A DNA stretch of 64,000 nt from Orlajensenia leifsoniae (GTDB lineage: Bacteria > Actinomycetota > Actinomycetes > Actinomycetales > Microbacteriaceae). The notes under the pieces were generated by a model, which made no database searches, was not told the origin of the DNA, and saw only the letters and a program-made list of their open reading frames with translations. Below are positions 15,408 through 51,466 of this stretch, one piece after another. Location of the stretch: positions 434,001 through 498,000 of the forward strand of contig NZ_SPQZ01000003.1 of assembly GCF_004570845.1 (NCBI RefSeq), given 5' to 3'. How positions within the stretch are numbered: position 1 is the stretch's first letter; each line of letters starts with the position of its first letter. A program made the translations under genes and the position numbers.

Positions 15408-15492
15408 GGCCCGGGCGCAGCCCGCGGTCGCGGTGTGCCGGCCGGACGCGCTTCGGCTACGGGCCGTCGCTGCGCTCGGCCCTCAGCGAGCG
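15401..15492. repeat. Dispersed intergenic element, copy B
   Basis: The left end TCGCTGAGGCCC contains the TGA stop of the HNH gene. The right end GGCCCTCAGCGAGCG (15478-15492) is the conserved arm. The right half is also translated as the C-terminal tail of the minus-strand Fe-S protein. Confidence 0.7.
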
Positions 15493-16431
15493 TGATGAAC
15501 CTCGAGCGGGAATCGCCGCAGGCCCCGTCAGGCCGGCCAACTCGTACTGGCGCACCCGCAGTTGCCGGGTGGCCGAGCAGGTCGAGAGCAGGGGATCGGA
15601 TGCCGACTCCGCGAGCTCGACGGTGACGGGACCCGCATCCGTTCCCAAAGACACGGTCCAGCCCGAGCCTCCTTCGGGCGTCGTCGTCTCGCGCTCGCTC
15701 AGTGGCGGGTAGGCCTCGATGCCCTCGTCACCCAGAGCAAGTCGCGCGTAGTGCTGTGCGGCCTGCACGGGATGCGACAGGGAACTGCGGCCGCGGTAGT
15801 GCTCCTCGACGACGCGGCCGTCGAGGTAGGCCTCGGCGATGCGCACCGCGTCCCCGTCGTCTGCGTTGCCGTAGTAAAGCCCGTGGGGCAGCATCACGAG
15901 GGTTCCGGCGAAGCGGTCGCCGCCCAGGTGAGAGCACTCCCAGGTCTCCTCCGGGAAGGCTGCAGCGAGTGTCGTCACGACCTGGCGACCGCGCACCGCA
16001 CAGCACTGGTCGTGGCGCGCGTGGGCGCAGACGGCGAAGATCGGGCGATCGGATGCCTCACCCGTCGAGCCGTCGAGCGGAACGTCGAGCAGCTCCTCCG
16101 GGTTGTCGACCGAACCCCAGCGCACGGACTCATGTCCCGGCCTGGAGTCGACGCTCGCCCACGACCACGAGGTCTGCTCGCGCCGGCGGCCGGTGCGGCG
16201 GATGGCGAGAGGGCGCATGCCCGCACCCTCGATGCGTTGGATGAGTGCCCGGCCGAGCGTCGTGTCGAAGGGCGGATCCAGGAACGCCCGCGATCCCCAC
16301 GGGCCCGAGATCTCGATGAGGAACCACTGCATGCCTCGCGAGCCCGTGCCGGTGAGGGGATCGCCGCGTTGCCTGGAGCGGTCACTGCACGGCTGCCAGC
16401 CGCCGTCGCCGAACGGGCCGTCCACGCTCAC
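15457..16431 (-). CDS. Sucrase/ferredoxin-like family protein (thioredoxin-like [2Fe-2S])
   Basis: A 324-residue protein of the Suc_Fer-like family. It has an early CSDRSRQRGDPLTGTG motif, the central cluster region FAVCAHARHDQCCAVRG, and WECSHLGGDRFAGTLVMLP with conserved Cys/His that bind a [2Fe-2S] cluster in related thioredoxin-fold ferredoxins. The substrate is unknown despite the family name. It follows the JmjC/cupin gene by 16 nt and is the third gene of that operon, so it may supply electrons to it; this is inference. A GTG at 16431 is chosen because it falls after the cupin stop; longer readings overlap that gene. The last residues (SLRAERSDGP) are encoded by repeat copy B and are probably not functional. 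Confidence 0.85.
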   Translation of the reverse strand: MSVDGPFGDGGWQPCSDRSRQRGDPLTGTGSRGMQWFLIEISGPWGSRAFLDPPFDTTLGRALIQRIEGAGMRPLAIRRTGRRREQTSWSWASVDSRPGHESVRWGSVDNPEELLDVPLDGSTGEASDRPIFAVCAHARHDQCCAVRGRQVVTTLAAAFPEETWECSHLGGDRFAGTLVMLPHGLYYGNADDGDAVRIAEAYLDGRVVEEHYRGRSSLSHPVQAAQHYARLALGDEGIEAYPPLSERETTTPEGGSGWTVSLGTDAGPVTVELAESASDPLLSTCSATRQLRVRQYELAGLTGPAAIPARGSSRSLRAERSDGP

Positions 16432-16447
16432 GAGGCCGGCCGGGTAG

Positions 16448-17704
16448 TCACTCGAGCGCCACGAGGAAGCCCTCGCGCAGCAGACGGCGCACCACGACGA
16501 CGGCATCGGACTCGTCGAGTCCCGGCACCTCGGCGACGACGGTCTCGGCGCCGGTGATCAGGTGACGAAGGGCCTCGGTCGCCTCGCCCGGCAGCGTCAG
16601 TGTCGCGAGCCGGGAGACCAGACGTACCTTGTCGCCCGACTGCTCCACGCGTGCGCCGAGCGATCCACGCCAGCGCACCCGGGTCGCTCCGTCGAGGCGG
16701 GCGATGGCGTCGACGGTGGCGAGCGGGGCGATCGGCTCGGGACGGGTGGCGTCGGTGAGTCGTGCCGAGAGCCTGCGGGCGACGCGGTCGGTGGACGCGG
16801 CGGCGTCGTCGGCGCTCGCCGAGGTCAGCACGGCGATGAGCTGCTCCGCCGTCTGCTCGACGATGGCTCGCACGGCTGCGGCATCCGTCAGGTCGATGCC
16901 CAGAGGCAGCGACGAGCGCAGCGCCGGGGAGTCCCCGGCGACGGCGACGAGGGTCTGCACCACATCGGCGCGCGTGTACGCGGCCATGCCGATCGTCAGG
17001 TGCACCGAGGTGTCGCCGAGGGCCTCCGCCGAGTGGATCCAGCCGCGCGGCAGGTACAGGGCGTCGCCGGGGCGCAGGACGGCGTCGATGACGGGGGCGT
17101 GGGTCGCCGCCTCTGCGACGGCGGCACTGTGATCGCTCCACGGCTGGTCGCGCAGGGGATCGACGTGCACGGGCGCGTGGATGCGCCAGTGCTTCTCACC
17201 GCTGATCTGCAGCACGAACACGTCGTGCACGTCGTAGTGCGGATCGAAGCCGCGCGACGACCCCGGCGTCACGTAGGCGTTCACCTGAGCGGGATGACCG
17301 ATGTCGTCGATGAGGCGTCGGGTGAAGTCGATCAGCGGCGGCCAGAGCCTGTGCAGGCCCTGAAGCACGATCGTCGCGCCGCCGGCGAACTCGGCCAGCA
17401 CCTTGTCGGAGCTGACCTGGTCTCCGACCTCCGCACCGAAACCGCCGGGAGCGGTGTACGAGGCGGGCTTCAGCACCGAGCCCTCGTGCGCCATGCGGAT
17501 GAAGGGGGTGCGGAGGCCGCGCTCGGTCACCAGCTCGTCGACGGCTTCAGTCGAGAACAGGTCGTCGAAGGCTCCGGCCAGGGTCGCAGCCTCGGACAGC
17601 AGTGGTCGCCTGCCCCAGTACTCCCGGGCGAACTCGTCGGCCGGAATGCGGATGCAGCGCGAAAGCGCGGGCCGGTCGCCCGGCCCGCGTTCCGTGTCGT
17701 TCAT
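16448..17704 (-). CDS. JmjC/cupin_4 Fe(II)/2-oxoglutarate oxygenase
   Basis: A 418-residue protein of the cupin_4/JmjC ribosomal-oxygenase type. The iron-binding facial triad is visible: H156-x-D158 in RGFDPHYDVHDVF and the distal H224 in LPRGWIHSAEA. A Lys/Thr-type 2-oxoglutarate pocket is likely around EKHWRIHAP. The C-terminal part (about 270-418) looks like the helical dimerisation and winged-helix region of RoxA/YcfD-like enzymes. Known relatives hydroxylate Arg or His side chains of ribosomal proteins. Here the gene begins 1 nt after the stop of a three-repeat Gly/Asp/His peptide, which suggests that peptide as substrate. ATG 17704 gives the conserved N-terminus; the longer reading frame upstream is an out-of-frame reading of the peptide repeats. 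Confidence 0.88.
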   Translation of the reverse strand: MNDTERGPGDRPALSRCIRIPADEFAREYWGRRPLLSEAATLAGAFDDLFSTEAVDELVTERGLRTPFIRMAHEGSVLKPASYTAPGGFGAEVGDQVSSDKVLAEFAGGATIVLQGLHRLWPPLIDFTRRLIDDIGHPAQVNAYVTPGSSRGFDPHYDVHDVFVLQISGEKHWRIHAPVHVDPLRDQPWSDHSAAVAEAATHAPVIDAVLRPGDALYLPRGWIHSAEALGDTSVHLTIGMAAYTRADVVQTLVAVAGDSPALRSSLPLGIDLTDAAAVRAIVEQTAEQLIAVLTSASADDAAASTDRVARRLSARLTDATRPEPIAPLATVDAIARLDGATRVRWRGSLGARVEQSGDKVRLVSRLATLTLPGEATEALRHLITGAETVVAEVPGLDESDAVVVVRRLLREGFLVALE

Positions 17705-17705
17705 C

Positions 17706-17957
17706 TCAGGCAGAGCCGTCGGCGCCGCCGTCGTGGCCGTCGGGGTTGGCTCCTCCGTCGGCGGTTCCCTCGCCAGCGGAGCCGTCAGCTCCACCGTCGT
17801 GGCCGCCCGGGTTCGCGCCGCCGTCGGCAGGTCCCTCGCCGCCCGAGGCCGAGCCGTCGGCTCCGCCGTCGTGGCCGCCCGGGTTCGCGCCGCCGTCTGC
17901 GACTCCTTCGCCGCCACCGGCGGCCTCGTTCGTGATGTCTTCGTCGTTGATCGCCAT
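17706..17957 (-). CDS. Small three-repeat Gly/Asp peptide, possible substrate of the adjacent oxygenase
   Basis: An 83-residue protein: an 18-residue acidic leader (MAINDEDITNEAAGGGEG), then three 19-residue repeats at 19-37, 43-61 and 65-83. The repeat core is ADGGANPGGHDGGADGSA, with PD for PG in the third. The spacers are SGGEG and GEG. No cysteine, aromatic residue or membrane segment is present in the repeats. The ATG at 17957 is chosen because GGAAGG lies 6 nt upstream; an ATG two codons earlier abuts that site. It is the first gene of the operon and ends 1 nt before the oxygenase ATG, so expression is tightly coupled. Leader-plus-core organisation resembles a modified-peptide precursor, but a Ca2+- or metal-binding spacer protein is also possible. 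Confidence 0.8.
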   Translation of the reverse strand: MAINDEDITNEAAGGGEGVADGGANPGGHDGGADGSASGGEGPADGGANPGGHDGGADGSAGEGTADGGANPDGHDGGADGSA

Positions 17958-17999
17958 AGTCATCCTTCCCACGCATGCGGCGTGGTCGCCGCGCTCTTC

Positions 18000-18005
18000 A
18001 CAGTA
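18000..18005 (-). promoter_or_regulatory. -10 box TACTGT for the repeat-peptide operon
   Basis: On the minus strand TACTGT predicts a start near 17993 and a leader of about 36 nt that includes GGAAGG. Confidence 0.45.
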
Positions 18006-32201: not shown

Positions 32202-32249
32202 CCCCGGGACTACTCGGCCCCGGGACTACTCGGCCCCGTGCCTACTCCG
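32202..32249. repeat. Three tandem 16-bp units
   Basis: CCCCGGGACTACTCGG occurs twice exactly (32202-32217, 32218-32233) and a degenerate third copy follows (32234-32249). They lie between the kinase stop and the end of the next minus-strand gene. Confidence 0.75.
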
Positions 32250-32466
32250 CCCTGATGTCGGCGAGAACGGTGGCGAACTCGTCGTCGGAGAGCTCGATGC
32301 CGGAGTCTCCGAGCCGTCGGCGCAGGTCCTCCTCGGGGTCGGGGCTCACGCCGCTGTGGAAGTCGTGCCGGATCTGTGCCACGAGGCCGCGCAACTTCTC
32401 GTCCTGGCCCGCCTCGTCGCTGCCGTCCTGGATGGGGCTGTCCTGGGTGCCGTTGTCGTCAGTCAT
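32242..32466 (-). CDS. Small acidic protein, function unknown
   Basis: A 74-residue acidic protein: MTDDNGTQDSPIQDGSDEAG, then a helical part KLRGLVAQIRHDFHSG and DDEFATVLADIRAE. It has no Cys and no membrane segment. The family is not recognised. The ATG is supported by TAGTCT ending 6 nt upstream. Two further small acidic proteins lie at 34673 and 34877. Confidence 0.65.
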   Translation of the reverse strand: MTDDNGTQDSPIQDGSDEAGQDEKLRGLVAQIRHDFHSGVSPDPEEDLRRRLGDSGIELSDDEFATVLADIRAE

Positions 32467-51318: not shown

Positions 51319-51466
51319 GGGCCGAGCGGAGCGACCGCCCGAAGCGCATCCGTTGAACGGCCGCGCCAGTGGGCGACGCTTCGAACGCCGACTCCGTCGG
51401 GTCCTCAGCGAACGCGCTGTAGCCGGGTCCTCAGCGAACGCGCTGTAGCCGGGTCCTCAGCGAGCG
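51268..51466. repeat. Dispersed intergenic element, copy F, with internal duplications
   Basis: CCGCTCGCTGAGGGCCGAGC occurs at 51268 and again at 51308. Further right a 26-bp unit GTCCTCAGCGAACGCGCTGT plus AGCCGG is repeated at 51401-51426 and 51427-51452, with a partial third at 51453-51463, before the terminal CGAGCGGG. It fills the gap between convergent genes and reaches into the transporter gene. Confidence 0.8.

Follow-up and report, generated by a model that had tools for sequence, protein, structure and literature searches.

A tandem-repeat peptide encoded beside a JmjC_2 oxygenase and a Suc_Fer-like protein: a candidate family of enzyme-modified peptides in actinobacteria

The DNA analyzed here, which we refer to as the window, is a stretch of 64,000 nucleotides from Orlajensenia leifsoniae (Microbacteriaceae; contig NZ_SPQZ01000003.1, positions 434,001 to 498,000). 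On its minus strand, at window positions 15457-17957, lie three tightly packed open reading frames (ORFs) encoding, in order, a small repeat peptide, a JmjC_2 oxygenase and a Suc_Fer-like protein, which together form one operon (Table 1). The ORF analysis confirmed the layout described in a first-pass annotation, namely an 83-residue repeat peptide, an oxygenase whose start codon lies 1 nt past the peptide stop, and an Fe-S protein that begins with a GTG at 16431, 16 nt past the oxygenase stop. A second in-frame ATG is present 6 nt upstream of the chosen peptide start, but conservation among the peptide homologues begins at M(A/S/G)I(N/D), and a purine-rich stretch resembling a ribosome-binding site precedes this start. 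The oxygenase gene is single-copy in the O. leifsoniae genome.

The peptide consists of an acidic leader, MAINDEDITNEAAGGGEG, containing the motif (I/L)xD(D/E)DI, followed by three units of the form ADGGANPxGHDGGADGSA. The repeats thus contain nine Asp residues, to which unit 3 adds a tenth. This array is the top-scoring tandem repeat of the window (score 258, period 72, as determined with Tandem Repeats Finder). The three near-identical copies reported earlier are present, while the 19-residue unit first assigned to them gives way to an 18-residue core, with a unit-to-unit spacing of 24 and then 22 residues. In pairwise comparison the copies show 5, 7 and 9 synonymous as against 0, 1 and 1 non-synonymous differences. 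Given that they differ mostly synonymously, and that an equivalent ORF precedes the gene of this enzyme throughout the phylum, the array cannot be ascribed to chance. The evolution of the repeats is under strong constraint at the protein level: within genes they differ at 42% of synonymous and 3.4% of non-synonymous sites (ratio of non-synonymous to synonymous differences, pN/pS, 0.08), and between species at 45% and 8.6%, respectively (pN/pS 0.19). No family model for the peptide was matched in NCBIfam or Pfam, though its low complexity may hide one.

When 84,980 species genomes were scanned, the enzyme was found at 80 loci (51-86% identity), in hosts including Microbacteriaceae, Cellulomonas, Rhodococcus, Gordonia, Williamsia, Dietzia, Mycolicibacterium and others. 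A repeat ORF lies immediately upstream of the oxygenase gene in 79 of them; in the sole exception (L072) the contig starts 24 nt ahead of the gene, so that the locus is unjudgeable. As a second sample we used 396 evenly drawn genomes of actinobacteria, in which the upstream region of every enzyme match was inspected. The enzyme is patchily distributed here, being matched in 58 genomes, of which 49 have an Asp-rich repeat ORF, 2 are cut by contig ends and 7 lack such an ORF; thus 49 of the 56 judgeable carriers possess the peptide. In the same sample, clusters of at least two DNA matches encoding HDGGADG were found only just upstream of the oxygenase (single matches, which arise by chance elsewhere in genomes, were not counted). 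These counts, which covered the possibility that cupin homologues mostly lack a repeat peptide, uphold the pairing of peptide and oxygenase put forward in the first-pass annotation, and carry it beyond the Microbacteriaceae. An encoded precursor adjoining its modifying enzyme is one of the features by which ribosomally synthesized and post-translationally modified peptides (RiPPs) are recognized, and it is found here.

The core family comprises 84 distinct peptides with 241 units of 18 residues. Positions D11, G12, G13, A14, D15 and G16 of the unit are invariant, and D2 is kept in 240 units, H10 in 238 and N6 in 234. Where the His is lost, it is replaced by Ala (units of Dietzia) or Gln (the longer units of L094), and the Asn is either replaced by Thr or absent. 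The peptides linked to the enzyme embrace several unlike repeat types, namely DGGANPxGHDGGADG, TDGDAADG, ADGTDQG...GPRDA and EDDENLDAPGEHSQDTGDE, alike in their leader motif and in being repetitive, and the cores of distant relatives contain runs like TDGDAADGTDGD, DGTDSDSDG and ADGTDQGVEGGTYGPRDA, or GPTEDDENLDAPGEHSQDTGDE in two near-exact copies. Most of these distant cores lack both His and Asn, despite an identical JmjC iron site in their enzymes, and Asp is the sole candidate residue common to all repeat types. Nearly all of the distant relatives retain a short N-terminal acidic leader with (L/I)xD(D/E)DI. A leader with a conserved motif, distinct from a variable core, is a further feature typical of RiPPs. 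A likeness between NPxGHDGG and the uL2 loop NPVxHPxGGG was considered and dropped because the distant repeats lack both NP and His.

We also recorded a few individual loci. In L151 the two GPTEDDENLDAPGEHSQDTGDE copies lie upstream of the JmjC enzyme gene, at about 2580-2710, and no Suc_Fer gene adjoins it. On a Streptomyces clavuligerus plasmid (L186:4808-6203) a JmjC enzyme of 31% identity, which has the same RRL helix (see below), is preceded by a 48-residue ORF, MDDKKTSLEPDEIEVIPPVSTPDFVIADNDPSDPPIAIADPDPFDPVI. The leader of this ORF (LEPDEIEVI) is similar and its core is rich in Asp; an ABC transporter and a peptidase of family S9 are encoded close by. Two genes upstream of another JmjC homologue, a Dolichospermum plasmid has a 71-residue ORF (L184:2643-2858) whose leader region contains SDEDI as well as LNGG and whose core is a duplicated RSSAQL, making it a possible cyanobacterial cousin. 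These two neighborhoods suggest that the peptide-oxygenase principle extends further. A Pseudanabaena plasmid (L185:1-1126) encodes a JmjC homologue three genes away from a LanM lanthipeptide synthetase.

The oxygenase matches the Pfam family JmjC_2 (4.5e-30), and its HxD...H iron triad (H156, D158 and H224), already noted as intact, proved invariant in 51 of 51 aligned homologues. A profile of these homologues searched against the PDB retrieved NO66 (2e-42), MINA53, YcfD and Bacillus subtilis YxbC. The AlphaFold model (predicted local distance difference test, pLDDT, 93.6) aligned with NO66 over 378 residues with a Z-score of 29.4 and a root mean square deviation of 5.7 Å. Judged by its modeled structure the enzyme belongs to the JmjC_2/ribosomal-oxygenase (ROX) structural family, a placement made by fold alone; the match to protein hydroxylases agrees with the enzyme type first proposed, whereas the gene context points away from a ribosomal protein as substrate. 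In a maximum-likelihood tree the enzymes linked to DGGADG peptides fall into one starred clade of 27 rows, including G142, and a second clade unites 24 other enzymes, mostly linked to Asp repeats; the rows labelled 'other' include L098, L105, L113 and L151, whose repeat ORFs were identified later. Most of the peptide-less enzymes lie outside both clades on long branches. Besides G142, the carriers without a repeat ORF are G165, G185, G249, G355, G372 and G388, whose enzymes have diverged and for the most part fall outside the linked clades.

The C-terminal domain of the oxygenase (residues 322-418), modeled alone with a pLDDT of 90.3, is predicted to be a winged helix of three strands and three helices (DSSP of the models), the composition that RiPP recognition elements (RREs) require. 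Its closest folds are the ROX winged helices of NO66 and MINA53 (Z 10-12.5). The next matches are mostly RREs and related leader-binding domains (Z 6-7.5, values that may stem from a common arrangement; Foldseek E 0.01-0.1), those listed being PbtF (Z 7.5), TbiB1 (7.1), PqqD (6.9) and NisB (6.4), as well as MccB, ThcOx, TruD, McbB and MibB. In these comparisons of models it is the identity of the non-ROX matches that is telling. The last helix, VVVVRRLLREG, is rich in Arg (R406, R407 and R410), and R407 is kept in 90 of 91 core and all 24 distant peptide-linked enzymes, as against one of the seven without a peptide. RREs bind their leaders between strand 3 and helix 3; an Arg-rich helix opposite an acidic leader fits the predicted leader recognition, though it is suggestive only.

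The third ORF matches Suc_Fer-like (PF06999) in Pfam at 2.1e-16, above the curated cut-off, and a gene of this family follows the oxygenase in 106 of 124 loci. Of the 18 loci without it some are short, but about a dozen extend far enough downstream for its absence to count. The reductant of JmjC oxygenases is 2-oxoglutarate, and an electron donor is in principle unneeded. On both grounds an obligatory part as electron donor is not supported for the Fe-S protein, which was first taken as electron donor or reductase; it is a frequent partner with a distinctive cluster site. We compared the motifs of 110 operon-linked sequences (some of them from overlapping loci of one genome) with those of 16 stand-alone paralogues, near whose genes neither the peptide nor the JmjC enzyme was seen. 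In the linked proteins HxGG(H)RFA is replaced by HxGG(D)RFA, with Asp in 109 of the 110 as against 2 of the 16 stand-alone proteins, 14 of which have the second His of HxGGH. Likewise, CxHxx(R)DxCC is replaced by CxHxx(H)DxCC, with this His in 109 linked and none of the stand-alone sequences. Apd1-type proteins share the Pfam family and the C...CC...HxGG motif of the thioredoxin-like ferredoxin domain, and yeast Apd1 binds its [2Fe-2S] cluster through two Cys and two His (PMC11126956). Since the linked proteins have exchanged the second His of HxGGH, taken as a cluster ligand in the Apd1-type 2Cys2His site, for Asp, while gaining a His in the CxHxxHDxCC loop, we classify them as Suc_Fer-like rather than Apd1-type, and their branch has probably changed its cluster ligand set.

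Table 1. Coordinates of the operon and its parts in the window
Feature	Position	Strand	Basis
Repeat peptide gene, 83 aa	17706..17957	-	Translation, repeat finder, homologues, pN/pS between repeats
Repeat unit 1, ADGGANPGGHDGGADGSA	17847..17900	-	Translation, substitution analysis
Repeat unit 2, ADGGANPGGHDGGADGSA	17775..17828	-	Translation, substitution analysis
Repeat unit 3, ADGGANPDGHDGGADGSA	17709..17762	-	Translation, substitution analysis
JmjC_2/cupin_4 (NO66-like) oxygenase, 418 aa	16448..17704	-	Pfam, alignment, AlphaFold model, PDB profile and fold matches
Oxygenase C-terminal winged-helix/RRE-like domain (predicted), residues 322-418	16451..16741	-	Model, fold matches, Arg conservation
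Suc_Fer-like (thioredoxin-like [2Fe-2S]) protein, CAHARHDQCC ... HLGGDRFA motif	15457..16431	-	Pfam, operon conservation, paralogue motif comparison

Beyond the three genes, no further gene family is conserved within 4 kb of the module, and no promoter or regulator motif shared upstream of the loci rose above the shuffled background. That the peptide is the substrate of the oxygenase is strongly implied, and we regard it as probable that the locus encodes a RiPP-like modification module, in which the enzyme binds the leader and hydroxylates the aspartates of the repeats. The acidic leader, through (L/I)xD(D/E)DI, would dock on the RRE-like C-terminal domain via its Arg-rich last helix, and the Asp/Gly repeats would then enter the NO66-like JmjC site. 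There Fe(II), O2 and 2-oxoglutarate would serve to hydroxylate side chains, most likely at the C-beta of aspartate and at several positions per peptide. Of the three residues proposed as targets at the outset (Asn, His or Asp), Asp is the likeliest judging from the sequences, because His and Asn are missing from most distant repeats and His is replaceable in the core family, while Asp is always kept. The Suc_Fer-like protein could be an accessory that maintains the iron site in a reduced or loaded state, or it may act on the product. The latter would be a multiply hydroxylated acidic peptide, perhaps metal-binding, and an intracellular product is favored because the module lacks a linked protease, exporter or regulator; leader removal by a housekeeping peptidase is possible. 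More tentatively, and with much less confidence than we place in the module itself, these could be phylum-wide ribosomal poly-(beta-hydroxyaspartate) peptides, made by a JmjC oxygenase that bears an RRE and has a re-wired [2Fe-2S] partner, and acting as intracellular buffers of iron or other metals. If so, they would be the genetically encoded counterpart of the hydroxyaspartate siderophores.

Some observations weigh against leader-guided hydroxylation of aspartates. NO66, whose fold the enzyme matches best, is a His hydroxylase, and His is conserved in nearly all core units. The G142 enzyme sits in the peptide-linked clade, yet its upstream ORF is acidic and non-repeat. The RRE matches are of moderate strength, and ribosomal oxygenases bear the same C-terminal domain without a leader peptide. 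Finally, the 4 kb around the module contain no conserved gene for a peptidase, a transporter or another RiPP function, so that release or export of the product is unsupported.

The first of these points leads to the alternative that survives best, though we consider it unlikely: the peptide would be the substrate, and in the DGGADG branch the true site would be the His (or Asn) of the repeats, in line with NO66 and MINA53, the distant branches having switched residue. The nearest solved folds are indeed those of His hydroxylases, and both residues are nearly constant in the core units; however, each is lost or replaced in some of these, and most distant cores lack both while the iron site of their enzymes is identical, leaving Asp as the only residue found in all types. 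We think it improbable that the module is a sensor of oxygen, iron or 2-oxoglutarate, in which hydroxylation would change how the peptide binds another protein, the product itself being neither a metabolite nor a metal binder. 2-Oxoglutarate oxygenases do act as sensors in other systems, and such a role would suit the absence of conserved export or protease genes nearby and the sharing of one operon by an Fe-S protein and an enzyme using O2 and 2-oxoglutarate. Nevertheless, the module has no conserved regulator as neighbor and no shared upstream motif, and its repeats resemble a binding or bulk-product sequence. We give little credence to the view that the enzyme is simply a ribosomal oxygenase with uL2 or uL16 as its substrate and the acidic peptide as its binding partner, inhibitor or metal supplier. 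Fold and family, the single copy in the O. leifsoniae genome and the lack of maturation genes are all compatible with this, but occurrence in 58 of 396 genomes is ill-suited to ribosome maintenance, and tandem repeats of varied type behind a shared leader suit a substrate better than an inhibitor. That the peptide is an artefact, an untranslated GC-rich low-complexity frame, would accord with its failure to match any family model, but is refuted by the low pN/pS within genes, the conserved start and leader, the ribosome-site-like sequence before the start and the fixed position across the phylum.

With NO66 (RIOX1), MINA53 (RIOX2) and RoxA/YcfD the oxygenase has in common an HxD...H JmjC domain and a C-terminal winged helix, and is set apart from them by its position 1 nt after a repeat-peptide gene, its patchy, operon-bound occurrence and its Arg-rich last helix. 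RRE-containing RiPP systems likewise combine a three-strand, three-helix RRE-type domain with a leader bearing a conserved short motif, but here no protease or transporter is conserved. PF08007 JmjC proteins of fish and algae have been described as containing RRE-like folds, with bacterial homologues (~30% identity) in RiPP-like contexts (Bregman et al. 2025, PMC12710340); the main text of that report names no repeat peptide, Suc_Fer partner or Asp core. BipG, also a JmjC enzyme, hydroxylates ornithine at the gamma position in the ribosomal precursor of biphenomycin (+16 Da; PMC12707348). By analogy, its action on a side chain of a ribosomal precursor offers a precedent for the proposed role, although the BipG system has a short core, belongs to a multi-enzyme antibiotic pathway and lacks repeats and an Fe-S partner. 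Beta-hydroxyaspartate occurs in the RiPP nitrilobacillin, through a multinuclear iron oxidase (MNIO; PMC13060819), and bufferins are described as modified peptides that bind metal (PMC12452194); the enzymes of both are of the DUF692 type, not JmjC, and their precursors differ too.

In the open-licence literature we found no description of these peptides as a family, of their leader or of the module of three genes (a prior description elsewhere is possible), no relevant occurrence of the peptide motif strings and no paper joining cupin, sucrase/ferredoxin and RiPP; PF08007 and RiPP appeared together there only in PMC12710340, and the decRiPPter paper does not mention cupin, JmjC or sucrase. The module, which many actinobacteria carry, has the look of a hitherto undescribed class of peptides modified by an enzyme. 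It would define a peptide family found across Actinomycetota, supply a natural peptide substrate for a large, unassigned bacterial JmjC group now named just 'cupin domain-containing protein', and connect the winged helix of the NO66 family to RiPP leader recognition.

Elsewhere in the window we noted a tandem repeat of CCCCGGGACTACTCGG at 32202-32252 (3.2 copies, 91% matches) and a perfect 26-bp tandem repeat of 2.5 copies at 51398-51463, the period of which is not a multiple of three.

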